This document shows, piece after piece, positions 9,886-30,395 of a stretch of DNA of 36,872 bases. Both the position numbers and the translations under genes were made by a program. The stretch's first letter is position 1; each line of letters begins with the position of its first letter. Under the pieces are notes generated by a model. That model was not told the origin of the DNA. It searched no databases and saw only the letters and a list, made by a program, of their open reading frames with translations. Source of the DNA: an uncultured Pseudomonadota bacterium (GTDB lineage Bacteria > Pseudomonadota > Gammaproteobacteria > Ga0077536); the NCBI GenBank assembly GCA_902551695.1, contig CACDEI010000010.1, positions 1 through 36,872 on the forward strand, read 5' to 3'.

Positions 9886-10803
9886 TCACTTATCGTGATT
9901 AGCTTCACCTAAAAACTCTTCAAGACTAGCCGCACGAATCTCCTTTACAATCTCAGCAGCAATCTTAAATGTGCCTTTTTTATCAGTCCTCCTGACAAAG
10001 TAACTCGCCTCAGGATCTGGTGTCGACATAGTTGTAACCTGACCGAAAGAACCGTCCTCGTTTTCATATTTGAATAACTTTTCAAAACCGGAACCATCCG
10101 TACTAAGCTCTTCTCCCTGGACAAAGTGGGATAGTTGAAGGTCTGTTAAAGTTTCAAGGAATTTATCAACTTTACTTTGATCGTAGTTTTCCGCCTCTAA
10201 TCTAAACAGGTTATCTTTCTTCTTAAATGTCATGTCATCTAAAATAATAGCGGAGACGTTTTCTGGAGAGATTCTCAAATAGCCTTTGTCTAGCCAATTA
10301 TCACGCGAAGTATCTAGTTCCCACGACTCTACATCTACTATATATACAGAATCTTCTCCAGCAAGCCTTACGTAACTTTGCCTGATCGTTGCCGGCTTAC
10401 CAAAAAACAAAACAAGAGAAGCGCCGTCTGTTTTCTTGAATCTAACTTTTAGCTTATAGTCTTCTTCGGCGACTTCGAAGCGCTCATGGGAGCCTTCACT
10501 AAAGGATACAGGCAAGCCTCTTTTTAAATCAGTAATTTTTGATAGAAATTCAGCCAGCTTGTACTGATTAACTGGAAAATTTTCTAAATCTGCATCCTGC
10601 CACCGCTGATCTTCGATAAAAAAACTTAGCGAACCATCTTCACCACTCAGTTCTACTGCTTTCACTGTTCGTGCCTCAGTTTCCAGCAGGCTTCGCGTTT
10701 TTTCCTCACGGATACTTCGCTCGGGCTTGGTAAACTCCAAACCTCCCCAAAGGAGAAGTTGGGCCACCAATAAAGTTATTAAAAAAATGCTAAGCCGATT
10801 CAA
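9886..10803 (-). CDS. DUF4340 domain-containing protein (partner of Gld-type ABC transporter)
   Basis: N-terminal TM followed by a repeat-like extracytoplasmic protein (TVKAVELSGEDGSLSFFIEDQRWQ...); 4-bp overlap with the upstream GldFG-like gene. Confidence 0.75.
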   Translation of the reverse strand: MNRLSIFLITLLVAQLLLWGGLEFTKPERSIREEKTRSLLETEARTVKAVELSGEDGSLSFFIEDQRWQDADLENFPVNQYKLAEFLSKITDLKRGLPVSFSEGSHERFEVAEEDYKLKVRFKKTDGASLVLFFGKPATIRQSYVRLAGEDSVYIVDVESWELDTSRDNWLDKGYLRISPENVSAIILDDMTFKKKDNLFRLEAENYDQSKVDKFLETLTDLQLSHFVQGEELSTDGSGFEKLFKYENEDGSFGQVTTMSTPDPEASYFVRRTDKKGTFKIAAEIVKEIRAASLEEFLGEANHDK

Positions 10804-13664: not shown

Positions 13665-13676
13665 AAAAAATAGCCT

Positions 13677-14585
13677 CTAAATTTCATTAAATATGGTTTC
13701 CAAATCACGTTTTTCTTTTGAGAGCTCTGATAAACCGAAACCCGCTTCCACTACCAACCGAGCAACTTCTGAAACAACGGCCTCATTTTTCAAGGTTAGA
13801 GTGTATTGAAAGCCCGTTTCGTTTTTCTCAATGAAGTTAAGCGTCGCAAATTTTGCTAGTGGTCCTACAGCCGTACCAAAATCTTCTAGCTCCTTATCGA
13901 CAGTAACAGTAAATCTTCCTTGAGCACTGAGATCAACGAGTTTTGAGTCTAATGCCTTTCTACCTTCCTTTATCACGATAACCCTATCACAGACTGACTC
14001 CACCTCTTTCAATATATGCGTCGACAAAATCACAGTTGTATTATTATCCGAAAGTCCTTTTATCGTCCTTCGCATTTGCTGAACCTGGACAGGATCCAAA
14101 CCATTTGTAGGTTCATCCAAAATGAGCACCTTAGGCTGATGCAAGATAGCTTGAGCCACACCCACACGTTGCCTAAAACCTTTGGAAAGAGTTCCAATGG
14201 TATGATTTGACTTGGCCGCTAAATCTGTTTTTTTTAGCGCATTTTCTATAGCGAACGGCAAAAGGCTCTCTTGTACACCTCGTAGAATAGCGGTATACCC
14301 AAGATAATCTAAAACCGTCATCTCTTCGTAAAGAACGTTATTTTCGGGGAGATACCCTATTTTAGCCTGTGAGGCCGATATCCGAGACCAGATATTCTGC
14401 CCTTCGAGTTCCACCCACCCCTCAAGAGGACGAAGAAAGCCCGTCAAGATTTTCATAATTGTACTTTTCCCGGCACCGTTGGGTCCAAGTAAACCGACTA
14501 TCTCTCCCGAGTTTATCTCGAATGAGACCTCGTCCACTGCCAGTGTGTCGCCGTAACGGTGTGAGAGAGAACTAACCTTAATCAT
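13677..14585 (-). CDS. ABC transporter ATP-binding protein (GldA-like)
   Basis: Walker A GLLGPNGAGKST, signature LSKGFRQRVGVAQAI, Walker B KVLILDEPTNGLDP. Confidence 0.95.
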   Translation of the reverse strand: MIKVSSLSHRYGDTLAVDEVSFEINSGEIVGLLGPNGAGKSTIMKILTGFLRPLEGWVELEGQNIWSRISASQAKIGYLPENNVLYEEMTVLDYLGYTAILRGVQESLLPFAIENALKKTDLAAKSNHTIGTLSKGFRQRVGVAQAILHQPKVLILDEPTNGLDPVQVQQMRRTIKGLSDNNTTVILSTHILKEVESVCDRVIVIKEGRKALDSKLVDLSAQGRFTVTVDKELEDFGTAVGPLAKFATLNFIEKNETGFQYTLTLKNEAVVSEVARLVVEAGFGLSELSKEKRDLETIFNEI

Positions 14586-15308: not shown

Positions 15309-16442
15309 ATGCCGGAAAAAGGTGTTTTTATAGAAAAAGTAGCTAATAAAAGATCCTTACGCGATTTTATAGGGGTTCCATGGAACGTTTATGGTGAGAC
15401 AGATAATTGGGTGCCTCCTCTAAAGATTGAACGTCAAATGGCTTTATCACCTTCGCAAGGAGTATTTCAACACCTGAGTTGGTCAGGATGGGTGGCCTAT
15501 GAAAATGGGGTCCCTGTTGGAAGAATATCCGCACAAATAGATCAATCTCACCTGTCGAAACGAGGAGACAAAACTGGCTTTTTCGGTTTTCTAGAGGCAG
15601 TGAATAAACAGAGTATTTTCAGCGAGCTGTTCGAACGAGCAGAAACTTGGCTAAAAGAGAGAGGGATTTCCCAAGTCATGGGGCCCTTTAGTCTTAATAT
15701 TAACCAAGAGGTCGGCTTGCTAGTTGATGGCTTTGATACAGATCCCTATTTTATGATGCCAAATGGTCTACATTATTACGCCTCCCACCTAGAGAACCTC
15801 GCCTACAAGAAAGAAATGGATTTATACGCGTATATGATTAAGGCAAGTTTTCAACCACCTAAGGTGATGTGCAAATTGATAGGAAGCATGCCTAAAAGCA
15901 TGACAATCCGCTCGATCAATAAAAAAGATCTCACAAATGAACTAGAAATAATCAGAAATATTTTCAATGATGCTTGGAGTGAAAATTGGGGCTTTATACC
16001 CTTCGGGAAAACTGAATTTCAAACAATTGGCAGAGAAATGTTGATGCTCATACCAGATAGTTTTATACAGATCGCAAGTATAGAAGGCGAACCGGCGGCT
16101 TTTATAGTTCTGCTCCCTAACGTTAACGAAGCCGTGAAAGATCTTAACGGCAAACTTTGGCCAACCGGTTGGATAAAATTACTTTACCGATTAAAAATAA
16201 CCTACCCAAAAAGCGCCAGAATACCTTTAATGGGAGTAAGAAAAAAGTACCATGACACCAAGCTGGGACCGGGTTTAGCTTTGTCCGTCGTGAACGCTTT
16301 GAGGAAGCCAGCCACCTTAAATTTGATAGACGATGTTGAAATGTCATGGATTCTAGAAAATAACAGCGCCATGAGCAACATAATCAAAATTCTAGGCGGC
16401 TATCGATCCAAGACGTATCGCGTCTATAAAAAGAATCTATAA
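15309..16442 (+). CDS. GNAT-fold acyltransferase, candidate bacterial ceramide synthase (YghO/bCerS-like)
   Basis: VMGPFSLNINQEVGLLVDGFDTDPYFMMPNGLHYYASHLENLAYKKEMDLYAYM resembles the YghO/CCNA_01212-type family. Located in the same cluster as Spt, ACP, CerR-like and acyl ligase genes. Confidence 0.75.
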   Translation: MPEKGVFIEKVANKRSLRDFIGVPWNVYGETDNWVPPLKIERQMALSPSQGVFQHLSWSGWVAYENGVPVGRISAQIDQSHLSKRGDKTGFFGFLEAVNKQSIFSELFERAETWLKERGISQVMGPFSLNINQEVGLLVDGFDTDPYFMMPNGLHYYASHLENLAYKKEMDLYAYMIKASFQPPKVMCKLIGSMPKSMTIRSINKKDLTNELEIIRNIFNDAWSENWGFIPFGKTEFQTIGREMLMLIPDSFIQIASIEGEPAAFIVLLPNVNEAVKDLNGKLWPTGWIKLLYRLKITYPKSARIPLMGVRKKYHDTKLGPGLALSVVNALRKPATLNLIDDVEMSWILENNSAMSNIIKILGGYRSKTYRVYKKNL

Positions 16443-16463: not shown

Positions 16464-17249
16464 ATGGAAAACTTATCGGTCGTTGTCCTCGCGGGAGAAA
16501 GGCCTATCGAACAGGATCACCAAACTACAAACCCCAACATTTTCACTTTGATTGCAGGAGTACCGACAATCGAAAGAGTGATCAGCACCCTTTCATCTAG
16601 CCAAAAATTTTCTCACATTTTAGTTGTTGGGCCCGAAAGGGCAAAAAAAGATGACTCTGAGATTATGAAAAGAATTCTAGCACAAAGAAAAGTAGAGTAT
16701 GTTGAACCTTCGTCCGGACCTAGTGAAAGTGCTGCCAAAGCATTTATGATGTCCGATAATCCAGTACTTCTTACTACAGCCGATCACCCTCTTCTTAACG
16801 TCAGGATAATTGAAAACTTTGTGCAAGCTAGCGTCGAGAATCGGGCTGATTTTATTGTGGGTTTGGTACCCTATGAAGTTATAAAAAATTCATTTCCAGA
16901 GAGTCGAAGAACGAAGCTGCAGTTTAGTGATAAAACTCTTTGTGGAAGCAATCTCTTTTTTCTGAAAAGCAAGAAATGCTCCAACATCTTAAATCTCTGG
17001 ACTAAATTAGAAGCGTTGCGAAAAAGTCCGTGGAAACTTGCGAGCCAATTCGGCCTACTATATCTGATAAGGTATAAACTTGGGATGCTCACTACTCAAG
17101 ACGCATTTAATGTTTTGAGTAGACAAACGGATTGCAGGGCAAGCTATGTTATAATAGACCAACCAAGAGCTGCCATCGATGTAGATTCATGGGAAGACCT
17201 ATCTTTGGCAGAGCGAATTATCGGAGCAGATTCAGAAAGCAATGATTAA
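16464..17249 (+). CDS. MobA-like nucleotidyltransferase family protein
   Basis: SVVVLAGERPIEQDH, PTIERVISTL, VLLTTADHPLLN: NTP-transferase-like fold with a variant N-terminal glycine motif. Confidence 0.75.
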   Translation: MENLSVVVLAGERPIEQDHQTTNPNIFTLIAGVPTIERVISTLSSSQKFSHILVVGPERAKKDDSEIMKRILAQRKVEYVEPSSGPSESAAKAFMMSDNPVLLTTADHPLLNVRIIENFVQASVENRADFIVGLVPYEVIKNSFPESRRTKLQFSDKTLCGSNLFFLKSKKCSNILNLWTKLEALRKSPWKLASQFGLLYLIRYKLGMLTTQDAFNVLSRQTDCRASYVIIDQPRAAIDVDSWEDLSLAERIIGADSESND

Positions 17250-17988
17250 ACCATTTTTGAGAAGCCTAATTCACTCTGGTGGAAAAAAGCTATTGCGAGC
17301 GGTTGGTGCATTTCAAGCACGACATTCTAGTGTAAAAACAACCCCATTTTTACCTAACAATTCTTTTTCATGTACTAATCTGTTGGAAGAAAGTTGGGAG
17401 GACATTCGTGAGGAATTAGATTCAGTTTGGGAGAGCCCAGAAGACATTCCTTCCTTCCATCAAATCAGCCCCGATCAAGCGAGAATTTCAAAGGGCAACA
17501 ATTGGAAAACATTCGCGTTCTATATATTTAAATCTCCCGTATCAGAAAATTGCAAGAAATGCCCAAAGACAAGTCGAATTCTAGCCAGCATCGATGGTTT
17601 ACAAAATGCTTGGTTTTCCATTCTGGCACCCGGCTATAGAATACCCCCCCATAGGGGACCCACGAAAGCTCTAGTAAGATGCCATTTAGGACTTCAGATA
17701 CCTGATGCTTCGAGGAATTGTTGGATAAGAGTAGGCAACCAAAAACAGTACTGGTCGGAAGGTAAGTGCATGCTATTCGACGACACCTACGAGCATGAAG
17801 TAGAAAATGGTACTGATGAGTATCGAGCAGTACTTTTCATAGACTTAGACAGGCCAATGGATAAAATCGGAACTATTTTTAATAAGGCACTCCTATCAAT
17901 AGTGAAGGCCAGTCATTACGTCAAAGATCCTCTAGCGAACCTAGCCAAATGGAATAAAATGCTAAATAGAAGACAGAGAGAAAAATAG
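17242..17988 (+). CDS. Aspartyl/asparaginyl beta-hydroxylase family dioxygenase (LpxO-like)
   Basis: ILAPGYRIPPHRGPTKALVRCHLGLQIP ... CMLFDDTYEHEVENGTDEYRAVLFIDLDRPM (metal ligand His, Arg for 2-oxoglutarate); 8-bp overlap with the upstream gene. Confidence 0.88.
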   Translation: MIKPFLRSLIHSGGKKLLRAVGAFQARHSSVKTTPFLPNNSFSCTNLLEESWEDIREELDSVWESPEDIPSFHQISPDQARISKGNNWKTFAFYIFKSPVSENCKKCPKTSRILASIDGLQNAWFSILAPGYRIPPHRGPTKALVRCHLGLQIPDASRNCWIRVGNQKQYWSEGKCMLFDDTYEHEVENGTDEYRAVLFIDLDRPMDKIGTIFNKALLSIVKASHYVKDPLANLAKWNKMLNRRQREK

Positions 17989-18054: not shown

Positions 18055-18795
18055 ATGAAAGCCATAATTTTAAGCGCCGGGCAAGGCAAGCGACTACTCC
18101 CCTTAACAAAGGACACCCCAAAAGCCGCGTTAAAGATTGGCACTCAGTCTCTGTTAGGCTGGCAACTACAGGAAATAAGTAAAACTAGCATTGAGGAAGT
18201 AGTTGTAATAACTGGATTCGGCGCAGATAAAATCGAAGACATAGTAGAAAAAAGTTCCTTCCATGGGGTAAGAACATTCTTCAATCCCTTTTATCAAAAT
18301 TGTGACAATCTAGGAACCTGTTGGGTTGCCAGGGGGGAAATGACCCGCCCTTTCGTCATTATCAATGGCGACACTATCTTTCAAGCTGGAGTTCTCAAGA
18401 AGCTTTTAGAGGACGAATCGAAATGCCCAATAACTATTGCATGCGACCAAAAACCTTCATACGACAGCGATGATATGAAAATCATAGAGAGAGAGGGAGA
18501 GATCCAAAGGGTCAGTAAAACGCTTCCCACCAACGAGGTAACCGGCGAATCCATTGGAATGATACGATTTAACTCAGTTGGGGCGAAGATATTTACTGAA
18601 CAACTAGAAACCATAATGAGGAAAAATAGTGGTCTTGGGAAATGGTACCTCTCGGCAATTGACTCACTCGCCGGCAATGGAACGGTTAGTTCTTGCTTTG
18701 TAGGCGATTTTAGCTGGTGTGAAGTGGACGACAAGGCTGACTTAGTCGCGGCAACTCAAAGCGTAAAACAATGGAACTTGGAAGCATTAAAATGA
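18055..18795 (+). CDS. LicC/phosphocholine-cytidylyltransferase-like or sugar/polyol-phosphate nucleotidyltransferase
   Basis: AIILSAGQGKRLLPLTKDTPKAALKIG signature; DNLGTCWVARGEM; FVIINGDTIF; WCEVDDKADL. Confidence 0.85.
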   Translation: MKAIILSAGQGKRLLPLTKDTPKAALKIGTQSLLGWQLQEISKTSIEEVVVITGFGADKIEDIVEKSSFHGVRTFFNPFYQNCDNLGTCWVARGEMTRPFVIINGDTIFQAGVLKKLLEDESKCPITIACDQKPSYDSDDMKIIEREGEIQRVSKTLPTNEVTGESIGMIRFNSVGAKIFTEQLETIMRKNSGLGKWYLSAIDSLAGNGTVSSCFVGDFSWCEVDDKADLVAATQSVKQWNLEALK

Positions 18796-19223
18796 ACTCT
18801 ACTATCACCAACTTCGGATATCCGGTAAATATTATTGAAGAATATACTAACTGGGTTGTAATGCTCAGGCCGGTACAATTAACTCTGGGGAGTCTGATAT
18901 TAGCTTGCAAGGAAGACGTCAAATCCTTTAGTGCACTCTCGAACTCATCCCAAAGAGAGTTATCAAAAGTGGTACTAGACATTGAGACAACGTTAAAATT
19001 TTGTTTCGACTATAGCAAGATAAACTATTTAATGTTGATGATGGTTGACCCTCACGTTCATTTCCATGTTTTTCCAAGATATGACGGGCAGCGCGTATTT
19101 GCTGGAACAATTTTCGAAGACTCTGATTGGCCCGGCCCTCCAGAAGTTTTGAGAAAGACAGAAATAAAACACGAGCTCTTCATAACTTTAAAAGATGAAA
19201 TTGCTAAGAACTGGGGTTCATAA
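18792..19223 (+). CDS. HIT family protein
   Basis: Histidine-triad motif HVHFHVFPRY. ATG at 18792 overlaps the upstream stop (ATGA). Confidence 0.85.
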   Translation: MNSTITNFGYPVNIIEEYTNWVVMLRPVQLTLGSLILACKEDVKSFSALSNSSQRELSKVVLDIETTLKFCFDYSKINYLMLMMVDPHVHFHVFPRYDGQRVFAGTIFEDSDWPGPPEVLRKTEIKHELFITLKDEIAKNWGS

Positions 19224-19240: not shown

Positions 19241-19783
19241 CTATTTTTTTGAGTGAAATTTCACCCTCCCCTCCCCGCTCGAACTAAGTTTTCCACTCTC
19301 ATATGAATAGACTAAAGAAGGGCCTGCAAAATGCTGCGAATCAGTTGTTATATAGGCATCTCCGATTGCGAATATCCTATTACTTAAAAAATCAAACTTA
19401 ACTGTTTTTCCAACAGCCTTCAGAGAATCATTTTCGCTCACATTCGTACTTTGTATGGTTGCAAGATTGCCGTCTACGATAATCACATCGGGACTGCTTA
19501 ACTGACCGCTGATTTTCATTTTCTCGCCAGTTATTTTCCAATCCACGCTTTCGAATACAACATCACCCTCGAGAGAGAGGGTTTGCGCGTCAAGCAGTTT
19601 GTATCCACTTTTGGCCTTTATCTTCACCACCTCATCTCCTTTGATTTCTGCAAATATCGAGTTATCTTCTCCAACTTCCATGGATAGTAAAGGCGGACTT
19701 AAAAAGCAAAAAATAAAGCAAAAAATAAGGTTTTTATGCTCGTCCCAAAACAGATAAAATGTAGTTGTTAGTTTCATTGTCAT
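19241..19783 (-). CDS. LptA/OstA-like periplasmic beta-jellyroll protein
   Basis: Hydrophobic N-terminus followed by repeated short beta-strands typical of OstA (LSLEGDVVFESVDWKITGEKMKISG... AVGKTVKFDFLSNRIFAIGDAYITTDSQHFAGPSLVYSYESGKLSSSGEGRVKF). Divergent from lptF. Confidence 0.72.
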   Translation of the reverse strand: MTMKLTTTFYLFWDEHKNLIFCFIFCFLSPPLLSMEVGEDNSIFAEIKGDEVVKIKAKSGYKLLDAQTLSLEGDVVFESVDWKITGEKMKISGQLSSPDVIIVDGNLATIQSTNVSENDSLKAVGKTVKFDFLSNRIFAIGDAYITTDSQHFAGPSLVYSYESGKLSSSGEGRVKFHSKK

Positions 19784-19801
19784 TTTAATTAAAGTACACC
19801 A

Positions 19802-20851
19802 ATGCTCATTGACCGCTATATTATTAAAGAAATTCTACTTAGCTTTTTTGTCACATTTTGTGTTCTAGCTATGATCTTCTTAATGTACAGCTTAACAATC
19901 TTTCTCGGAGAAGCGGTTGACGGTTCGCTATCCGGCAAGGAAATTATCGTGCTCACTCTTTTAAAAACGCTAATTGCATTCGGTGTTCTACTCCCACTAT
20001 CCTACTTTTTGAGTACTGTCATCGCATTTGGCAGGTTAAACCTTAACAGTGAACTTATCGCAATAAAAGTAAGCGGGACCAGTTCCAAGAGAATTACTGG
20101 CAACATTCTAATAGGCTGCGTACTGATCGGTGTATTATCAGCGGGCGCCTCTCTGTTTTGTCGCCCTTGGGCCTACCAAGAAATTTATACACTTAAAGAT
20201 GAAATAGCCAGTAAATGGGAATTTCAAAAGGTCAAGTCGAAACGCTTTTATCTCTCAGAGAACGAGGAACAGATAATCTACTTGGGTAAAAATGACTTTT
20301 CATCTGGGAAGCTAGAGGAAGTGTTCATAAAGAACCAACAGGAAGATGGGTTCGAAATCATAACCGCTCCGATTGGAACTATAAAATCTTTCATCACCCC
20401 CAAAACTCATCAACTTTCTCTTGAAGGCGCAGAGATATACAAAATCAGCTCTGAAGATAAGTTTTTTGTGCAGTTGGAAAATCTAACCCTTCAAATAAAC
20501 GCCTTTAAGACTATCGAACAAAATCAACGGGCCAAGAAGAAACCAAACATTATACTGGCCAGTTCTACAAACCCTGTAGAGAAAGCGGAACTCCAATGGA
20601 GGCTCTCCGCTCCAATATCCTGCTTCATCCTTACACTGACAGCATTGCCCTTAATTTCGATAAGCCCAAGACAAAGTAGGCTCGCAAAAATTCCAATTGC
20701 TATTGCTATTTATGCGACATATTACATCTTTCTAGGATTCTCTCGCACTTTGGTCGAACAGCAAGTTTGGCCACATCTTTGGTTTGGCCCGATAATATTC
20801 CTATCCGTTCTATTAATTTTTTTAAGGCTCAAAAGGATCAGAGAAAATTGA
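19802..20851 (+). CDS. LptF/LptG family (YjgP/YjgQ) permease, LptF position
   Basis: MLIDRYIIKEILLSFFVTFCVLAMIFLMYSL N-terminus; RPWAYQEIYTLKDEI; C-terminal WRLSAPISCFILTLTALPLISISPRQSR. Confidence 0.92.
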   Translation: MLIDRYIIKEILLSFFVTFCVLAMIFLMYSLTIFLGEAVDGSLSGKEIIVLTLLKTLIAFGVLLPLSYFLSTVIAFGRLNLNSELIAIKVSGTSSKRITGNILIGCVLIGVLSAGASLFCRPWAYQEIYTLKDEIASKWEFQKVKSKRFYLSENEEQIIYLGKNDFSSGKLEEVFIKNQQEDGFEIITAPIGTIKSFITPKTHQLSLEGAEIYKISSEDKFFVQLENLTLQINAFKTIEQNQRAKKKPNIILASSTNPVEKAELQWRLSAPISCFILTLTALPLISISPRQSRLAKIPIAIAIYATYYIFLGFSRTLVEQQVWPHLWFGPIIFLSVLLIFLRLKRIREN

Positions 20852-21912
20852 ATTTGCTTATATTAAAATACATAGCTCGACTTTTTTTTTGGAACTGCTT
20901 ACTCGTAGCTTTTGGTCTTATGTCCCTATTTTCTTTTTTAGACCTCCTAGAAACTTTGGATGATGTGGGCAAGGGCGACTTCACTCTAATTCATTCAATA
21001 CAAGTTGTTCTTCTAGGCTCTGGTTCTCGACTAGTAGAACTCCTACCAGTAACTGTCACTCTGTGTTCCTTGCTCACAATTGGAGGGCTAGCAAATAATA
21101 AAGAACTAGTAATATTTCGAGCTGTCGGCGTATCAAAGAACTTATTAACTGCTCTTTTGGCCGCTCTAGGATTGCTGCTTTCTGTTGTTAGCATCGTCAT
21201 GTTGGAACTGCTTATTCCCAAATTGGAAAAAGCGGCTCACGAGCTTTCCACACTTAAAATCGAGAAAACTACGGTGCAGTCTGACGAACTCTGGACTCGG
21301 CAGGGTCTACAGACACTGAGGATTGGAAACCTAGAGTCTCGCCATGTGCCTAGGGAGATTGAAATTTATGAAACTGACTCCACTGGCTCTTTGGTGCGAT
21401 TTGTTGAAGCCAGTAAGGCATATTTTCAAGATGATGGAACTTGGCTTCTCTTCGACATAAAAGAAACCACCTTTCGAGACGACCAAGTAAAAGAGAGCAT
21501 AATAGAGACCCGGGTCTGGGACAGCTTTTTAACCAGAGAACAATTTGGGCGATTAGTATCGCCCCCGGCGACCTTGTCCATTACCGGCCTATTAAAACAC
21601 CTCAACCAAAATAAAATACTAGCAGTTGACTCCTCTGAATACTCCTCTCTTCTGTGGAAAAAAATCAGTTTGCCATTAACTTTAATGGCGATGTCTATTC
21701 TGAGTGTGCCTCTAGCAGGCGCCTCAATCAAAAATCGATCAAACGGCTTTTTGGCTGTGATGGGAGGCGTGATTGGAATATTATTTTATTTAATCGAACA
21801 AACGGCATCAAATCTCGACCAGCTACTTGATCTATCGCCAGCCCTTACTTCACTCACCCCTGCACTTATAATCATCGCAATTACCATACTCTTAAATCGA
21901 CACTCTACCTGA
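20848..21912 (+). CDS. LptF/LptG family permease, LptG position
   Basis: LLILKYIARLFFWNCLLV...LFSFLDLLETLDDVGKGDF, ELLPVTVTLCSLLTIGGLANNKELVIFRAVGVS, SLPLTLMAMSILSVPLAG. Start assigned to TTG (20848) overlapping the upstream TGA. Confidence 0.92.
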   Translation: MNLLILKYIARLFFWNCLLVAFGLMSLFSFLDLLETLDDVGKGDFTLIHSIQVVLLGSGSRLVELLPVTVTLCSLLTIGGLANNKELVIFRAVGVSKNLLTALLAALGLLLSVVSIVMLELLIPKLEKAAHELSTLKIEKTTVQSDELWTRQGLQTLRIGNLESRHVPREIEIYETDSTGSLVRFVEASKAYFQDDGTWLLFDIKETTFRDDQVKESIIETRVWDSFLTREQFGRLVSPPATLSITGLLKHLNQNKILAVDSSEYSSLLWKKISLPLTLMAMSILSVPLAGASIKNRSNGFLAVMGGVIGILFYLIEQTASNLDQLLDLSPALTSLTPALIIIAITILLNRHST

Positions 21913-22779
21913 ATCAGTCACAGCCAAATCGGAGCGCCATTTCATATTTTCTTTTTCATGTAACTCACCACTATCTAAATTCAAAGTTTTTAAGACAGAA
22001 GAAACGTCCACCCCCAATCTATCCTCACTAAAGTCTATAAGTCTGTAGGACGCGGGGCTTACACTCTCCATACTGGATGCAGAAGCCGTGCAAAAAACTT
22101 TTAATTCCGACCCTAAATTATACCGCTTGTTGACGTGTAAGTGGCCATGAAGTATCAGGTTTGTTTTAAGATTCAAGAAGTCCTTCTGCAAAACCTCTAG
22201 ATCTTTCAATTGCTTTCTAACAGATACTCCATCAGTTGTAATTGGATGATGAAGGAGGATGCAAACGAATTTATTTTCAAATTCTCGCATGATTCGTCGT
22301 AGTGTTTCTAATTGTTCAGAATTAATTCTTCCCTCCGCGGACCAAACAGGAGCAGGATACGCGGAAGACAGCCCAATCACTATGACTGAACCCATCCTAA
22401 CAAACCCCGGAAAAGAATTGCCCATTAAATGTAGATATGGACTCCAAAGTTCTCTGACTAATTTAATAGAGGATTTAACATAGATGTCATGGTTTCCTGG
22501 CACTACAAAAACCTTCGCCTTCTTAGATAGGTTGCGTAACCACGCTTTGGCCTCTCTAATTTCGCCTGGCAAGCCCAATTGCACTAAGTCTCCCGTAATA
22601 GTGATTAAATCGGGATCGTCAGATAGAACAGATTCAGTAATCAAATCTAGAACTTCTTTAGTATGGATAAAACGGCGGCGACGGCGCCAGGAAAAATATC
22701 CTAGGCTACGTTTCCCCCAAAATCGAGAAAAACCCAACGGCTCTGTCATATGAAGATCTGTTAAATGGACAAGTCGCAT
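21892..22779 (-). CDS. Calcineurin-like metallophosphoesterase
   Basis: RLVHLTDLHM, DLITITGDLV, VPGNHDIY, LILHGHLHVN. 3' end overlaps the 3' end of the lptG-like gene (convergent). Confidence 0.92.
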   Translation of the reverse strand: MRLVHLTDLHMTEPLGFSRFWGKRSLGYFSWRRRRRFIHTKEVLDLITESVLSDDPDLITITGDLVQLGLPGEIREAKAWLRNLSKKAKVFVVPGNHDIYVKSSIKLVRELWSPYLHLMGNSFPGFVRMGSVIVIGLSSAYPAPVWSAEGRINSEQLETLRRIMREFENKFVCILLHHPITTDGVSVRKQLKDLEVLQKDFLNLKTNLILHGHLHVNKRYNLGSELKVFCTASASSMESVSPASYRLIDFSEDRLGVDVSSVLKTLNLDSGELHEKENMKWRSDLAVTDSGRVSI

Positions 22780-22851
22780 TTATCTTAAAGCCACTCTTGT
22801 AATATAATCATGCCGATGGATTAAGGAGCACCCTATTTGGAAAGGTCCATT

Positions 22852-24042
22852 ATGACACATAAAGTACTCATTTCAGGACAAACTAACCTTTTATTATGGG
22901 GAGTTAGCCCCCGCTCGCGTCTTGAACGTCAATTACGAGCGTTAAATATATACGACATCTCGCTAGATTCCCCAACAATCGCTCACAACAACTACGACAT
23001 AATATTTAACGGAGAATATGTTTTTGACTCCCAATCACTGAAATTTTTCCTAGAGCAAATGAGACCATGTGCCTTGGTATACAACGAGGTTGTTATCGGA
23101 TTGAGTGCAGGAGATAAAAGCGATGCGAATTTATTAAGTTATTTGGGACAAAATATCTCACAGTTGCCCCAATCAGTTAAAAAGATCAATACTTCTGATT
23201 TACTCACTTACAATGATCACCTAAGAAGATCAGAACCGCCTCTGGTAATGCCCATCTCAGCAGACAATTTGAAAATAATTGAAGACCGTTTGTATGGTAA
23301 CTCTTATAAAGGCATAACAGACTTCGTCACAAAATGGATTTGGCCCAGGCCTGCAAAAAAGGTGGTAAGAATTTTTGCAAACTTTCAGATTACACCTAAT
23401 ATGGTTACTCTGGTAAGCCTGATTCTGGTGGTCATTAGCTCTCTTCTGTTTTTGAATGGACATTTTATTTTTGGTTTATTACTTGGATGGATTATGACTT
23501 TTCTAGATACCGTTGACGGAAAGCTAGCCAGAGTGACCGTTACAAGTAGCCGCATTGGTCATATACTCGATCACGGAATGGACATCATTCATCCTCCAAT
23601 CTGGTATGCTTGCTGGGCAAGTGGACTCCTTTTTAATTCAAAAATAACGTCTGAGGCAGCGGATCTAATTACCTGGTGGATAGTGGGTGGTTATATTCTT
23701 GGGAGGATTATAGAGGGTTTATTCCATGCTTTGGGAAGTTGTAGTATCTTTGCGTGGAAACCATTTGACGCAATCTGCAGGTTATTTACGGCACGACGAA
23801 ATCCTTGTCTGATACTGCTGTCTGTATTTACTTTTGCAGGTTTACCCCATATTGGATTATTTGCTGTATGTGTCTGGACCCTGTTCAGCTCTGCTTTGAT
23901 GGCCCTTCGCTTTTTACAGGCGATTTTTGTAAGATTGAGCACTGGACCACTGAACTCTTGGCTGAAAAACGAAAAAGAGGCTATGGAGCATAATCCACGT
24001 TTATACAAAGCATTTTCTAGTACGCGAAAAGCTTATGAGTGA
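22852..24042 (+). CDS. CDP-alcohol phosphatidyltransferase with degenerate nucleotidyltransferase-like N-terminal domain
   Basis: Perfect CDP-AP motif DTVDGKLARVTVTSSRIGHILDHGMD (DxxDGxxARx8GxxxDxxxD) at 23506..23583. An alternative TTG start at 22837 is possible (GGAG 8 nt upstream). Confidence 0.9.
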   Translation: MTHKVLISGQTNLLLWGVSPRSRLERQLRALNIYDISLDSPTIAHNNYDIIFNGEYVFDSQSLKFFLEQMRPCALVYNEVVIGLSAGDKSDANLLSYLGQNISQLPQSVKKINTSDLLTYNDHLRRSEPPLVMPISADNLKIIEDRLYGNSYKGITDFVTKWIWPRPAKKVVRIFANFQITPNMVTLVSLILVVISSLLFLNGHFIFGLLLGWIMTFLDTVDGKLARVTVTSSRIGHILDHGMDIIHPPIWYACWASGLLFNSKITSEAADLITWWIVGGYILGRIIEGLFHALGSCSIFAWKPFDAICRLFTARRNPCLILLSVFTFAGLPHIGLFAVCVWTLFSSALMALRFLQAIFVRLSTGPLNSWLKNEKEAMEHNPRLYKAFSSTRKAYE

Positions 24043-24913
24043 AAAAAACACCGCTGCGAATGATGATAGCCCCTTAACTTTCGTTGAAATCTTCAAGGAA
24101 AAGTATGGGAAGGAATTGCGAGCGGTGATTCTTTATGGTTCTTGGATCCGAGGACGGCGGGATACAGTAATCGACTTTTATGTAGTTCTAGACTCATATA
24201 AGCCCTTGAATTCGAGGCTAGAGGCTAGTTTAAATCACTTGTTAGCTCCTAATGTTTACAATATGACTGTCCTACAGGGGGAGGAAACAATAGCCACCAA
24301 ATATGCCACGGTGTCAGCGGAAGTTTTTGAAAAAAGTATTTGCCATGATTTCCATCCCTACTTTTGGGCTCGCTTCGCTCAACCAAGTGAAATCTTATAT
24401 GCGAGAAACGAACACATTCGCACTGAATTAGCTGAGCTATTCAATATCGCTACCAAAAGACTAATTACCAAGGTTCTACCTCTACTGCCCAAAGCCTTCT
24501 CAATAAATGAACTATGGGAGAAAGCTTTTGAACTAACCTACAGATGCGAATTACGTAGCGAATCGGAAAATACTCCGAAAATACTAGCGGAGAACATGCA
24601 TCAAATATCAAACTTCTTAGCAAAAGGTTGTGGTCTAGAGTTTTCCGATAATGTAATTTATCGAGCGGGGAATGATTCCAGCCGATCCACCGAAATCCTC
24701 TGGATTTTTAGAACATTGGTGGGTAAATCATTAAGTGCGCTTCGACTTTTTAAAGCCCTCTTCACCTTTGAAAAGCCACTTGACTATCTTGTTTGGAAAA
24801 TAGAGAGACACACCGGAATCAGAGAGACACCTACTGACCTGCAACGTAAGTATCCGATACTATTTTCATGGACTTTGCTGTGGAAAATTTTTAAACGCGG
24901 CGGGTTTCGTTGA
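24035..24913 (+). CDS. Pol-beta-like nucleotidyltransferase-fold protein
   Basis: AVILYGSWIRGRRDTVIDFYVVLD resembles the GS...DxD motif, but with V at one of the two Asp positions. 8-bp overlap with the upstream gene. Confidence 0.6.
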   Translation: MSEKNTAANDDSPLTFVEIFKEKYGKELRAVILYGSWIRGRRDTVIDFYVVLDSYKPLNSRLEASLNHLLAPNVYNMTVLQGEETIATKYATVSAEVFEKSICHDFHPYFWARFAQPSEILYARNEHIRTELAELFNIATKRLITKVLPLLPKAFSINELWEKAFELTYRCELRSESENTPKILAENMHQISNFLAKGCGLEFSDNVIYRAGNDSSRSTEILWIFRTLVGKSLSALRLFKALFTFEKPLDYLVWKIERHTGIRETPTDLQRKYPILFSWTLLWKIFKRGGFR

Positions 24914-26241
24914 AAAAATTTTTCAACGAGCCCAATAGCTCCTTCACCAGGGTTTTAAAAAACTTATTCATACTACTGAGTGGCAGAGCGACAGCGGGAA
25001 TCTTGTTTTTCATTTCGATAATTATCTCCGCAAGACTTCTGGAACCAAGCGACCTTGGATTGATAGTCATGCTTCACGCTTATGTTATGACCATACGTGG
25101 CGTTATAACCGTGAAGCCCTTCGAAGCCATCGTGAAATACGGAACAATCGCCGCTGATAATGCTGATTTTGACCGTCTAGGCAAGTTACTTGTCTCGTGC
25201 ATGAAACTTGACGTCCTTACAGCCCTTCTAGGTTTTACCATCGCCTCATTTGGGATAAGTATATTGATCGATCTTCAATATCTCGAACCAAAAGCGGAAA
25301 AGATTGGTTGGATTTACTGCCTTTTACTCCTTATAGCAAATGATGGAACGGCTGTCGGCTCACTCAGAATATGGAACAAGTTCAATTACATAAGCTATTG
25401 TCTAATTGGAGGAGCACTCTCTCGGCTATTAGGTATAGTCACTTTATATATCTACGAGTCCCTAACCCTAACAAACGTTGCGTATGTTTGGTTTTTTTCC
25501 TCATGCGTTCAATATTTGCTACTACAAGCTACAGGCTGGTTTCTGATTTTAGATACGCTACCTAAACCGCTTCGCCACTACCTAACGCCTTTTAATTTAT
25601 GCGAACTAGAGAACCACGGAATCTGGCGTTTTTTGCATCTGGTTTACTGGCAAGGTGTGCTGGATACTATACCCAAACGAGGGGGAATTTTGTTAAGCGG
25701 CTTTTTCTTAGGACCTGAGATTGCAGCATTATACCGAATTACAAACGACCTGGCCGGGGTGATCGCCAAACCCGCGCTTTTGGTGAGGCAGGTAATTTTC
25801 CCGGACCTTGCCCGTCTAAAAAATGAAAGTTCCAAAAACCTACCGTTAACATTAAAAGTTTCGCTTATAGTAAGTCTACCTGCTGCATTACTGGCGATTG
25901 CGTCATTTTGGTTTGGAGAGGATCTCTTATCTTTCACTGTCGGAGAAGACTATACGATAGCCAGTGTTTTACTTACTATCTTGATCCTTTCAGCCACCTT
26001 GGAACTTGCATCATCTCCCCTGAGACCATTTTTATACGTTGCAGATTCCGCTGGAATATCGCTTGCAATTCAGATCTTTGGGACCATAGCTTACATTGGA
26101 ATATTTTATGTAGGAGTTGAAAGCCTCAACTTGCTTACACCTGGAATAGCATCCCTCACCTTAAATATCAGCACTTTGGTTCTGGCAGCTACGGCAATCT
26201 TCATGTCTCGCATAAAGCGGGAGAATCGAGCCTCATCTTAA
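24910..26241 (+). CDS. Polysaccharide/lipid flippase (Wzx-like, MVF/MATE superfamily)
   Basis: About 12-TM profile; LFILLSGRATAGILFFISIIISARLLEPSDLGLIVM N-terminal flippase pattern. TTG start overlapping the upstream TGA. Confidence 0.88.
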   Translation: MKKFFNEPNSSFTRVLKNLFILLSGRATAGILFFISIIISARLLEPSDLGLIVMLHAYVMTIRGVITVKPFEAIVKYGTIAADNADFDRLGKLLVSCMKLDVLTALLGFTIASFGISILIDLQYLEPKAEKIGWIYCLLLLIANDGTAVGSLRIWNKFNYISYCLIGGALSRLLGIVTLYIYESLTLTNVAYVWFFSSCVQYLLLQATGWFLILDTLPKPLRHYLTPFNLCELENHGIWRFLHLVYWQGVLDTIPKRGGILLSGFFLGPEIAALYRITNDLAGVIAKPALLVRQVIFPDLARLKNESSKNLPLTLKVSLIVSLPAALLAIASFWFGEDLLSFTVGEDYTIASVLLTILILSATLELASSPLRPFLYVADSAGISLAIQIFGTIAYIGIFYVGVESLNLLTPGIASLTLNISTLVLAATAIFMSRIKRENRASS

Positions 26242-26246
26242 AAGAC

Positions 26247-27446
26247 TTAGGCTGCTTTTCCTAGACCTAGACTCTCTGCAACTCTAGCAAACGCATCTCC
26301 TATAGAGCCTATTTGTGCTCGACTGTGAGCGGCCGTAACACTACATCTGATCACACTTCCCCCGTCGGGTGCCGCAGGGGGGAGAATTAAATTGGTGTAG
26401 ACTCCCAGCTCTAAAAGCTTACTCCAGAAACTATAGCCTAAATTATCATCACTGAAAGAGGCTCCGACAATTGGACTAATCACCTCCCCAATATTCAGCC
26501 CAACAGCGGAGAGTCGTCCATGGAGATCATTAGCATTCTCCCAGGCTTTTTTTCTCAAGTGAGTTCCCTGCTTCATAAGCTGAAGCGCTGCTCGAGTAGT
26601 CGCTACTACTGATGGAGACGGCGAGGCTGTAAAAATATAAGGTCGACTTGAGTACTTGAAAATACCAGCCTCCTTGTGGTTACTAACACAAAAACCACCT
26701 ATTGAACCTAAGCTTTTACTGAAAGTACCGACTATAAAGTCAGTAGAATCGATTACGCCCCTCTCAAAGGCCAGACCTGCACCAGTTTCCCCAAACAACC
26801 CCAGTGAATGGGCCTCATCCACAAGAATATAGCATCCATATCTGTTCTTTAACTCTATGAATTCTTCAAGTGGAGCACAATCTCCTCTTATACTATACAA
26901 ACCCTCAACAATCACTAACGTTGACTTAGCTCGCTCACCAAGCCGCTTGAGCCGCTTTTCTAAACTTTCTGGATCATTATGCTTGAAACGCAACACATCT
27001 GCTCCTGACAGACGACAACCGTCATACAAACTCGCATGAGCTTCAGAATCTACAAGCGCCACATCATCCTTACCAAGCAAGGCAACGAGAGTGCCTAAAT
27101 TGGCTGAATAACCTGTGCTAAACACCATCGCGTGATTCATCTTAAATAACTCAGCTATCTCGGTTTCTAAACACAAGTGACCTCTATAGCTGCCGTTAGC
27201 CATTCTGGAACCGGTCGTGCCAGTCCCCTCTACTTCAAGGGCTTGATGCCCTGCAGAAATACACTCAGGAGAAAAAGTAAGGCCCAGGTAATTATTGGTT
27301 CCCGCTAAAATAACTTTATTATTAGATACAATTGCCTCGGTTGGAGATAGTATTTTATCTATTATAATTTGCGTAGGATTAATGGGTAGATTGTCCAGCG
27401 TTTCTTTTTTTATCGCAGCATCATTCAAATTATCTAAAAGTCCCAA
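26247..27446 (-). CDS. spt: Serine palmitoyltransferase-like alpha-oxoamine synthase
   Basis: GTNNYLGLTFSPECI, GTGTTGSRMANGSYRGHLCLETEIAELF, VDSEAHASLYDGCRLSGADV, VDEAHSLGLFGETGAGL, PLP lysine GTFSKSLGSIGGF. Next to a dedicated ACP, acyl ligase and epimerase. Confidence 0.88.
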   Translation of the reverse strand: MGLLDNLNDAAIKKETLDNLPINPTQIIIDKILSPTEAIVSNNKVILAGTNNYLGLTFSPECISAGHQALEVEGTGTTGSRMANGSYRGHLCLETEIAELFKMNHAMVFSTGYSANLGTLVALLGKDDVALVDSEAHASLYDGCRLSGADVLRFKHNDPESLEKRLKRLGERAKSTLVIVEGLYSIRGDCAPLEEFIELKNRYGCYILVDEAHSLGLFGETGAGLAFERGVIDSTDFIVGTFSKSLGSIGGFCVSNHKEAGIFKYSSRPYIFTASPSPSVVATTRAALQLMKQGTHLRKKAWENANDLHGRLSAVGLNIGEVISPIVGASFSDDNLGYSFWSKLLELGVYTNLILPPAAPDGGSVIRCSVTAAHSRAQIGSIGDAFARVAESLGLGKAA

Positions 27447-27461
27447 TGAAGCACTCCCTAA

Positions 27462-27701
27462 TTATCGTAAATTTTTTTCTACAACAGCACTCAAATCCGC
27501 TACGGTAACAACATCGGAAAGCTCGCTTTCGCCTATCACCAATTCAAATGCGTCCTCTATTTCACATAGCATCTCAATAATTTGAATGGATTCAAGACCC
27601 AAGTCCTTCACAAGTGCCGTGTCGTGCTCAACCTTGCGGCTGGGATCGGCAAATTGCTGCACCACTTCCTTAACCCGTTCCAATAACTCGTTCTCTTTCA
27701 T
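27462..27701 (-). CDS. Acyl carrier protein (dedicated, sphingolipid type)
   Basis: DLGLESIQIIEMLCEIEDAFELVI phosphopantetheine site (Ser codon at 27588..27590); ATG at 27701. Confidence 0.88.
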   Translation of the reverse strand: MKENELLERVKEVVQQFADPSRKVEHDTALVKDLGLESIQIIEMLCEIEDAFELVIGESELSDVVTVADLSAVVEKNLR

Positions 27702-27722
27702 AAAAGCAATCAACCTCTTGTG

Positions 27723-28655
27723 CTAGGTGGAGTCCTTCACTCCTTCCTGTAGATCTTTCGACGGCTTCCAGGTGGTACGAGATACAATATCCGAGTTGTC
27801 ACAAACCCACCTATCATGTCGGATCTCGTTTACCTTACCAGATGTCAACATGGGAGCATATCGAAATATTCTCGCCCCCAACATATTGATTCTAGATAAT
27901 AACCGAAGCACAAACAGTGGGATGGGTAAAAGTACCCAAGGTTTCCGGCCTCGGGAGCTTTGCCAAATTTCATCCCATGTATAGCCGCCCACTTTACCAT
28001 CATGACAAGTAAAAGTCTGTCCTTTACAGGCATCAAAATTATTACTTAAAGCGGTTATAGCTCGAACACAATCATCGACGTGGATAAAGGTTAGTCTTTG
28101 TCCTAACGGTCCTAAAGAAAGGCCTATTCCCAGTTTCATCAGTTTTAACAATGGCAAAAGCTCTTTGTCCCCACGTCCATAAACCGCGGTAGGCCTCAAG
28201 ATAATCCAATCCAATCCCGTTGAGTTTCTAAGCACACTTTCTCCCCGTCTTTTTGACTCAGAGTAGGCGGAAAGATGAGGCTGAGAGGCTGCCAGGGACG
28301 AGACATATATGACTCGGGGAGTTTTCATAACATCAAGTGCCACATTCACTACATTTTCTAAGGAACTTACGTTAGCCTCCTCGAAATCTTGTAGTTTCAA
28401 CCCTTTGACCGTGCCGGCACAATAGATTATCAGATCTGCATTTGTTAAGGCTTCCCGCACCACATCGTTTTTTTCTAGTGGAGTTTCGAGGATTGCGAGG
28501 TTGCTTTCCAAACCCGAACTCTTAGATCTATTGGCGTGCGGTCTTTGAAGCGACGTAATGGAGTGCCCCTCTCTTATCAATTCAGAGATTAGGTGCGTCC
28601 CTATGAATCCAGTGCCGCCCGTAAGGACGACGTTCTTCTTATCTTTTATCGGAAT
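27723..28655 (-). CDS. NAD-dependent epimerase/dehydratase (SDR), CerR-like
   Basis: Translation from 28655 gives IPIKDKKNVVLTGGTGFIGTHLISELIREGHS, an intact Rossmann GxxGxxG. Downstream: VIYVSSLAASQP, YSESKRRGE, GLDWIILRPTAVYGRGDKE. The start codon is unclear: no ATG/GTG/TTG upstream of the Rossmann motif. Confidence 0.85.
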   Translation of the reverse strand: MPIKDKKNVVLTGGTGFIGTHLISELIREGHSITSLQRPHANRSKSSGLESNLAILETPLEKNDVVREALTNADLIIYCAGTVKGLKLQDFEEANVSSLENVVNVALDVMKTPRVIYVSSLAASQPHLSAYSESKRRGESVLRNSTGLDWIILRPTAVYGRGDKELLPLLKLMKLGIGLSLGPLGQRLTFIHVDDCVRAITALSNNFDACKGQTFTCHDGKVGGYTWDEIWQSSRGRKPWVLLPIPLFVLRLLSRINMLGARIFRYAPMLTSGKVNEIRHDRWVCDNSDIVSRTTWKPSKDLQEGVKDST

Positions 28656-30395
28656 CTACTCCGACGCCGCTGATGCCACCTTTTGACCTTGAGTCCGCGC
28701 TAGGAAATCCTGTTTTGCTTTGGAGCGGGACAGTTTCCCGGATGATGTTCTAGGCAGTGTTTTAGGAGGAACCAAATCGATCTGACAAGAAACACCAAAA
28801 TGTAAAGAAACCAGTTCACAGAGATTTTTAATCAATTCGTTACGCTTAGCTGGATTACTCTCTCGAGACTCTACAACCATCACTACCCTATCGGTACCGT
28901 GATCATCCGAGAAAGAAAAAGCGGAGACATTACCAAAGCGTACACCTGGCAGGCTTTCAGCAAGATACTCTAAATCATGCGGCCAGATATTACGTCCATT
29001 CACAATTATAACGTCCTTACGACGTGCAGTGACCACCACATTATCGCCGTTTCTAAAACCAATATCTCCAGTATCCAACCACCCATCCGCACTAAGAACC
29101 TCATTGGTCGCATCTTTGTTATGAAAATAACCAGTCATCACGCTTTCGCCTCTTAAGCAAATTCGACCACACTGGAAATCATCTAGGTCATTTCCCTCAT
29201 CGTCACGAATAGCCAACTCGAAACTCGGGAGAATCTTACCGCAATCAACAAATGTAAGAATGTCCGATCCTTGGGTAGATTCTCTTATAATTACATCACC
29301 ACTGGTTGAGATCGACTGTTTATCTACGTTCATCACAGACATACCATCACCCAACTTAGCAAAACTAATAGCCAAGGCACATTCCGCCATTCCGTAACAC
29401 GGTACAAAAGAAGCAGGATTAAATTTTGCATCTTTTAAAACGTGGGCGAAACGCCGTAGCGGTTCCGGATGAATTCTCTCAGCACCGACACACGCAACCC
29501 TCCAGGAGCTAAGATCGTATTTATCTTGGTCTGTAAGCCGCAAACGTTTTGCGCATAAGGCATACCCAAATGGGGGGCTGGAGGAAATTGTGCCTCGATT
29601 CTCTGATATCAATTTCAACCAAAGCCTCGGCCTCATAGCAAAAGTTTTCGGGCTTAGATAATCTGCCGACAATTGATTGGCAAGCGGGAGAAGAACAAAT
29701 CCCACTAATCCCATGTCATGATAAAAAGGAAGCCAGGATACCATCCTATCATTTCCACCAATTTTTAGTCCGTGAACTGAAATATCTCTCAGATTGGACA
29801 TGACACATTTTTGAGTTATCTCAACGCCTCGAGGGAATCGGGTGCTCCCTGAGGTGTACTGTAGGTACGCGATGTCACCTGATTCTAAAGGCTTCAAAGG
29901 TTCCTCACTGGAAGGCAATATCTCGAACTCCTCTGGAGTTCCACATTTGATTGAATCTATTCGCTCAGCCGCTTGCCTCAAAAAGGCAATGTGAGAATCA
30001 GGCGCAATAGCCACATCAGCTCCACAGCTATCCAGCATCCTTTCTAGTTGCTCGACGTAAGCAGCTCTTGCTCCCACTTGTAATCCAGCTGGCAAAGCAA
30101 CTGGAATCAAACCAGCATATTGACAAGCAAAAAAGAATCTATGGAACATCGGATGAGTTTCTGCAACGAGCGCCACTCTGGCTCCTCGTTTCAACTTAAG
30201 ACTCATTAACTGGGAAGCAAGATATTTTGACTGCTCTTTTAATTCGGCGTAAGTCAAAGTGACATCAAGCTCACCTCTTCCATTATAAAAATTACATCCA
30301 GTCTCACCTGCTGCTGCATACTCTAATGCTTCAACTAATGTCCCGAATGTTGCGTTGATTAAGCTCAAAGACTTATTGAGTTTAGTAGGTTTCAT
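28656..30395 (-). CDS. Fatty acyl-AMP ligase / acyl-ACP synthetase (AasR-like)
   Basis: AMP-binding motifs YLQYTSGSTRFPRGVEIT, CYGMAECALAISF, WLDTGDIGF, RRKDVIIVNGRNIWPHDLE, TLPRTSSGKLSRSKAK. Confidence 0.92.
   Translation of the reverse strand: MKPTKLNKSLSLINATFGTLVEALEYAAAGETGCNFYNGRGELDVTLTYAELKEQSKYLASQLMSLKLKRGARVALVAETHPMFHRFFFACQYAGLIPVALPAGLQVGARAAYVEQLERMLDSCGADVAIAPDSHIAFLRQAAERIDSIKCGTPEEFEILPSSEEPLKPLESGDIAYLQYTSGSTRFPRGVEITQKCVMSNLRDISVHGLKIGGNDRMVSWLPFYHDMGLVGFVLLPLANQLSADYLSPKTFAMRPRLWLKLISENRGTISSSPPFGYALCAKRLRLTDQDKYDLSSWRVACVGAERIHPEPLRRFAHVLKDAKFNPASFVPCYGMAECALAISFAKLGDGMSVMNVDKQSISTSGDVIIRESTQGSDILTFVDCGKILPSFELAIRDDEGNDLDDFQCGRICLRGESVMTGYFHNKDATNEVLSADGWLDTGDIGFRNGDNVVVTARRKDVIIVNGRNIWPHDLEYLAESLPGVRFGNVSAFSFSDDHGTDRVVMVVESRESNPAKRNELIKNLCELVSLHFGVSCQIDLVPPKTLPRTSSGKLSRSKAKQDFLARTQGQKVASAASE

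Follow-up and report, generated by a model that had tools for sequence, protein, structure and literature searches.

A paralogous LptF-LptG permease pair, probably dedicated to sphingolipid transport, in the ceramide locus of an uncultured gammaproteobacterium

We analysed a stretch of 36,872 nucleotides, hereafter the window, which is contig C10 of a 1.43 Mb assembly that is 71.6% complete. An lptF-lptG pair and an LptA-like gene lie embedded there in a complete ceramide/phosphosphingolipid cluster. The two permeases, here LptF2 and LptG2, are quite probably a paralogous Lpt permease pair dedicated to ceramide-based (phospho)sphingolipid. The comparison supports that the pair forms a distinct clade, inherited with the sphingolipid cluster, and has kept the signatures of LptB docking and of the jellyroll. 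It occurs in genomes that have LptB, LptC, and LptD in one copy each. From these lines, we infer the transport of sphingolipid itself.

The original prediction described an LptA-like gene divergent from a translationally coupled lptF-lptG pair, with sphingolipid genes on both flanks, and all of these elements were recovered (Table 1). The start codons of the LptA-like gene and of lptF are on opposite strands, 18 bases apart. The lptG gene most likely starts at the TTG at 20848; the start given by the ORF finder (20767) is just the first possible one. This TTG overlaps the lptF stop (TGA, 20849-20851), which makes translational coupling plausible. On the left, the trio is flanked by a ceramide synthase-like GNAT, nucleotidyltransferases, an OlsC/LpxO-like hydroxylase, and a HIT protein; on the right, by a phosphoesterase, a CDP-alcohol phosphotransferase, a nucleotidyltransferase, a candidate flippase, spt, acpR, cerR, and aasR. 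The yghO and CC_1154 genes, to which the GNAT gene is similar in type, were named as the ceramide acyltransferase 'aca' (PMC9386255). The arrangement of the locus is kept in at least 13 relatives and is thus not due to chance.

Table 1. Features of the sphingolipid locus in the window, with the match or observation on which each assignment is based.
Feature	Coordinates	Strand	Basis
Ceramide synthase-like GNAT, bacterial (YghO / CC_1154 type)	15309..16442	+	GNAT Pfam; phmmer 395 bits vs E. coli YghO
NTP/cytidylyltransferase-like head-group gene, conserved in cluster	16464..17249	+	MobA-like NTP transferase match
Asp/Asn hydroxylase family, OlsC/LpxO-like lipid hydroxylase	17242..17988	+	PF05118 1e-50; NF052565 OlsC 189 bits, below cut-off
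Nucleotidyltransferase, phosphocholine-cytidylyltransferase-like in plasmid clusters	18055..18795	+	PF00483; kept in clusters
HIT-domain protein, conserved cluster member	18771..19223	+	Cluster conservation
LptA2: single OstA/LptA domain, export-signal-like N-terminus, divergent from lptF2	19241..19783	-	PF03968 (LptA/LptD_N) 2.7e-7
LptF2 permease	19802..20851	+	NCBIfam LptF equivalog 254.8 bits, cut-off 230; spt-linked LptF clade
LptG2 permease, probable TTG start overlapping lptF stop	20848..21912	+	NCBIfam LptG equivalog 250.9 bits, cut-off 240; spt-linked LptG clade
Calcineurin-like phosphoesterase, conserved cluster member	21892..22779	-	PF00149 1.2e-14
CDP-alcohol phosphotransferase, probable head-group transferase	22837..24042	+	PF01066 2e-10
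Nucleotidyltransferase-like, conserved cluster member	24035..24913	+	Weak PF09139
Candidate lipid flippase, matches 'lipopolysaccharide biosynthesis protein' of other clusters	24910..26241	+	phmmer only, about 69-94 bits; no Pfam match
Serine palmitoyltransferase (spt)	26247..27446	-	NF047599 543 bits, over cut-off
Specialised acyl carrier protein (acpR)	27462..27713	-	PF00550
Ceramide reductase-like epimerase (cerR)	27723..28580	-	PF01370/PF13460; synteny
Fatty acyl-AMP ligase / acyl-AcpR synthetase (aasR)	28656..30395	-	NF006624 728 bits, over cut-off

Both permeases belong to the LptF/LptG family. They scored 200.1 and 186.1 bits against PF03739 (cut-off 27.9) and passed their respective NCBIfam equivalog cut-offs (TIGR04407/TIGR04408 set); their E. 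coli counterparts are about 19-22% identical to them.

The window pair as the only LptFG of its genome was rejected, as a search of the rest of the assembly returned a third permease, a canonical LptG beside pepA-holC-valS on contig C45. Canonical lptF, lptA, lptB, and lptC were not found in the 71.6%-complete assembly, which is plausible because more than a quarter of the genome is missing. The window's family has its canonical lptF by metH and its canonical lptG by pepA, each as a singleton not linked to the other, and the members with spt add the tandem pair. The canonical lptF was read next to metH, away from lptG and pepA, at L061, L075, L077, L083, L100, and L102. The two kinds of permease differ in their neighbourhoods, as the prediction had held for pepA: 44 of 49 canonical LptG genes are beside pepA and none is with sphingolipid genes, whereas the spt-type genes lie beside sphingolipid genes in 21/24 (LptF) and 22/25 (LptG) cases, and pepA was present at none of these loci.

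The other Lpt parts do not follow this duplication. LptD is single in the window's own genome. Nearly all relatives have one copy each of LptB, LptC, and LptD whether or not they carry spt, and those that deviate are mostly incomplete, contaminated, or fragmented genomes. A search for further copies of LptB, LptC, or LptD linked to spt found none; duplication is thus limited to LptF, LptG, and, in the window's clade, LptA. The proposed sharing of LptB and LptD agrees with these counts. For LptB, we infer the sharing from the relatives, since LptB and LptC are missing from the window's assembly.

Phylogenies placed the pair apart from the canonical permeases. In the first trees (152 rows), the spt-linked LptF proteins of the window's class formed one clade (SH-aLRT 100) that includes those of E. 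coli, Klebsiella, Rahnella, and Pseudomonas clusters. The canonical LptG clade of these trees (support 99) excluded every spt-linked LptG. The canonical LptG of the window's genome and the permeases of its class fell with the E. coli- and Pseudomonas-type proteins, a placement that points to a probably gammaproteobacterial host. The window pair is therefore neither the sole copy in its genome nor grouped with the LPS exporters. The second trees also took in genomes of the alpha type and loci of Sphingomonas, Roseomonas, and Diaphorobacter from named records; in them, the window LptG fell in an spt-linked LptG clade (SH-aLRT 98), the LptF clade again had support 100, and the spt-linked proteins split into a gamma-type and an alpha-type group. 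The AU test rejected a single clade of all spt-linked proteins for LptF (p 0.013) and did not reject it for LptG (p 0.16), which suggests, short of proof, that LptFG was recruited twice to sphingolipid loci. The trees come from quick searches and contain some long branches; the contig scan for LptF2 returned only three poor matches, and the named references were drawn from plasmid records and E. coli.

The co-occurrence with spt was then counted, a genome being taken as spt-positive when a serine palmitoyltransferase exceeded the curated cut-off. An extra LptFG pair was present in 20/20 spt-positive and 0/37 spt-negative genomes among 57 relatives, which are mutually related, amount to fewer than 57 independent observations, and may owe this pattern to few gains or losses. 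For this reason, a Fisher p was rejected as a count of independent events.

Among 398 genomes sampled evenly across the phylum, 38 besides that of the window were spt-positive, and 36 of these have a spt-type pair. An LptFG pair lies within 10 kb of spt in 24 of the 38, against about 2% expected. Eight spt-positive genomes hold four to five permeases; in the six that were read, one pair is canonical, mostly beside pepA, and the other is with sphingolipid genes, while the pairs of G294 and G362 were classed from position only. In 28 spt-positive genomes, the spt-type pair is the only LptFG type, with no pepA nearby, and where spt is elsewhere, cerS or other cluster genes are still beside the pair. 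Some of these 28 genomes group with Sphingomonas parapaucimobilis in both trees, which is the meaning of Sphingomonadaceae-like here.

The association has exceptions. The gamma-type, spt-positive genome G365 has only a canonical pair, and the spt-positive G187 gave no LptF/LptG match, so sphingolipids can be made without a special pair. Four spt-negative genomes have four permeases. The extra pair of G344 lies in a cluster of sphingolipid type whose spt is divergent, that of G376 is spt-type by sequence, and those of G121 and G268 are beside distant spt-like genes. The G121 pair (L173:1997-12366) is a third, very divergent LptF-LptG pair in an inositol-sphingolipid-like locus, which encodes a spt-like enzyme, DUF4833, myo-inositol-1-phosphate synthase, a CTP transferase, a glycosyltransferase, an FGGY kinase, and a CDP-alcohol transferase; the G268 pair (L175) is related to it. 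G350 carries an orphan single LptF2-type permease (L163, G350:C1:1799115) besides two complete pairs.

Residue positions were taken from PMC6744409 and PMC5082905. The coupling-helix glutamates LptF E84 and LptG E88 mediate LptB docking in E. coli (PMC5082905), and both are present in the window, in 24/24 LptF2, and in 24/25 LptG2 (one gap). The jellyroll residues LptG W204 and L206 and the gene order lptF-lptG are the same as in the canonical system. Changes were seen at cationic positions. The LptF K30 position is Ser in 23/24 LptF2 and Arg in 35/47 canonical LptF, and at K322, a contact to the inner core of LPS in Shigella (PMC6744409), 36/47 canonical proteins have Lys/Arg against 0/24 LptF2 (mostly Q/N/T/H). 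LptG R301 is kept in 46/49 canonical LptG versus 9/25 LptG2. The remaining lipid A contact residues were uninformative, and some of them, such as LptG K34, vary equally in canonical and F2G2 proteins, so specificity is unreadable from sequence. Asp at K34 in the window was rejected as a mark of new specificity, since the canonical LptG of the relatives mostly has no Lys there.

That LptF2G2 still moves LPS, serving as a reserve or regulated exporter of an LPS form that suits sphingolipid-containing membranes and clustered for co-regulation only, appears improbable. The pair does share the family and docking signature of LptFG as well as a common LptD; the K317 position remains cationic in LptF2, and R33, a lipid A phosphate contact in Shigella, is Arg in 21/24 LptF2 (Ile in the window). 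Its presence, however, follows spt and not LPS, which nearly all other relatives should make, and the 28 genomes that hold only the spt-type pair include the Sphingomonadaceae-like ones, whose named relatives are reported to lack LPS. Sphingomonads, with S. koreensis named, are reported to have glycosphingolipid instead of LPS (PMC11324152), so the LptFG retained there should carry something else, and for this reason the pair of these genomes is the best comparative argument.

We regard it as somewhat less probable still that the cargo of LptF2G2 is a different cluster product or a mixture, such as glycerolipids bearing the same head group or an ornithine-like lipid that is hydroxylated. The several head-group genes and the OlsC/LpxO-like hydroxylase would fit such a cargo, but across divergent clusters the constant partner of the pair is ceramide synthesis (spt, cerS), with no fixed head group. 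Least likely, F2 and G2 would mix with canonical LptF or LptG or be non-functional hitchhikers of the cluster, as the lone canonical LptG of the assembly and the unlinked canonical singletons of the family might suggest, whereas F2 and G2 were duplicated jointly and form a tandem pair in every intact locus, their functional residues are conserved, and the canonical lptF occurs as the second singleton in more complete relatives, so its absence here fits the 71.6% completeness.

The LptA-like protein, LptA2, is a homologue and not a canonical LptA, as it scored 41.7 bits against the TIGR03002 LptA equivalog, under the cut-off of 71.7. PF03968 was matched in 13/13 family members, the family profile matched PDB LptA structures at 5e-15, and hhalign against E. 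coli LptA gave 97%. The N-terminus is hydrophobic and, judged by eye, signal-like, and a single-sequence AlphaFold model predicted an all-beta fold with low confidence (mean pLDDT 51.9). LptA2 evolves fast, the window copy being 16-22% identical to the other members, and it holds the same locus position in at least 13 relatives. The PF03968 copies rise from two (LptA and the LptD N-domain) to three in the spt-positive genomes of the LptA2 clade. LptA2 is absent from genus g10, from G048, and from the plasmid or E. coli clusters. The predicted module that included LptA was thus confirmed in part: the pairing of lptFG with spt is general, and the LptA-like partner belongs to only a part of the window's family. 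In enterobacterial clusters, a YtfJ-family protein (PF09695) precedes lptF2 (L140:16654-17214, L142, and L143), near the place of LptA2 in the window's family.

If the pair is dedicated to sphingolipid, AasR-AcpR-Spt, CerS, and CerR would produce ceramide, and the CDP-alcohol transferase and nucleotidyltransferases would add a phospho head group to it. The product would be flipped, perhaps by the protein encoded at 24910-26241, and extracted as phosphosphingolipid by a hybrid LptB2-F2G2. In the window's clade, LptA2, as a putative soluble jellyroll, may provide a dedicated periplasmic link that joins the common LptC/LptA chain, and the common LptD would deliver the lipid at the outer membrane.

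Caulobacter has its Spt and CerS in the cytoplasm and its CerR in the periplasm, and its sphingolipids reach the outer membrane by a transporter described as unknown (PMC11087976); the route of bacterial sphingolipids out of the inner membrane is stated as unknown (PMC11324152, PMC11087976). A dedicated pair has already been published as a proposal for Caulobacter: Padilla-Gomez et al. 2024 (PMC11324152) put forward, as a hypothesis, LptC2/F2/G2 for phosphosphingolipid transport, with orthologues in A. vinelandii, P. luteola, N. eutropha, Sphingomonas, and Zymomonas. In their fitness profiles, mutants of CC_1168 (LptC2) and CC_1156 (LptF2) match those of sphingolipid genes (PMC11324152). Experimental tests of sphingolipid transport by LptF2G2 were not found in the literature searched, which included few subscription journals or preprints. 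From the published description, the sequences being outside our comparison, the C. crescentus locus (CC_1168/CC_1156/CC_1155) resembles the window in having a second LptF/LptG in a ceramide locus and the same proposed cargo; it differs in the third element, which is LptC-type at the other cluster end in Caulobacter and LptA-type next to lptF2 in the window. Compared with the canonical LptB2FGC-A-DE system, whose E. coli lptFG is beside pepA, the window permeases agree in passing the equivalog cut-offs, in the coupling-helix Glu and LptG W204/L206, and in gene order, and they differ in their separate clades, in an spt cluster that is never with pepA, and in the loss of the cationic LptF K30 and K322 positions. 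The spt-yghO locus of E. coli B/BL21 also has complete ceramide genes with lptF-lptG inside, and in a near-identical E. coli locus both permeases fall in the same clades as those of the window; it differs in having no LptA2 and in the YtfJ-family gene before lptF. This spt locus was described by Padilla-Gomez 2022 (PMC9386255), whose text is silent on lpt genes. New here are the variant containing LptA2, the copy-number logic, the genomes free of a canonical pair, the hints that LptFG was recruited several times independently, and the finding of the pair in about 75% of complete E. coli genomes, with BL21 among them.

A dedicated LptFG with one common LptB and LptD, if true, would make a sphingolipid exit route testable at once, and the choice of Lpt cargo would lie in LptFG rather than in the ATPase or translocon. 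Beyond the window, there is about an even chance that Lpt serves as a general bridge for lipids on which an exchange of LptFG sets the cargo, that sphingolipid loci recruited LptFG several times independently, and that LPS-free sphingolipid bacteria run the whole bridge on the spt-type pair alone. The recruitments so proposed are those of the gamma-type pair, the alpha-type pair, and the third divergent pair of the inositol-sphingolipid-like locus. With a dedicated LptFG, drugs against Lpt could act on LPS-free sphingolipid bacteria, and they could hit a second export route that about three quarters of complete E. coli genomes possess, BL21 among them.

In E. coli, the lptF2G2 pair (at least 80% of length) was found in 4084 of 5426 complete genomes, about 75%, while 4037 of the 5426 contain 80% of the 11.4 kb cluster. 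Where it was read, the cluster lies between glc and pitB (L140, L181, and L182), the site at which spt, lptF, and lptG are annotated in BL21. MG1655 has lost the part from aasR to lptF, with an IS5 between a shortened yghO and yghQ. That the E. coli cluster of NZ_MG591698 is truly borne on a plasmid was rejected, as it is flanked by the chromosomal genes glc, pitB, and hyb and 4122/4123 of the E. coli matches are on chromosomes. In other genera, spt-lptFG clusters are carried by plasmids of Klebsiella (conjugative), Rahnella, Pseudomonas, Diaphorobacter (conjugative), and Roseomonas (L141-L146; L143 is Klebsiella michiganensis NZ_CP106839), so the trait may move between species.

To the left of the cluster and on the opposite strand, window positions 9886-14585 encode a gliding-type ABC-2 permease fusion (10800-13664), an ATPase (13677-14585), and a 305-aa companion (9886-10803), which are apparently unrelated to the sphingolipid cluster.
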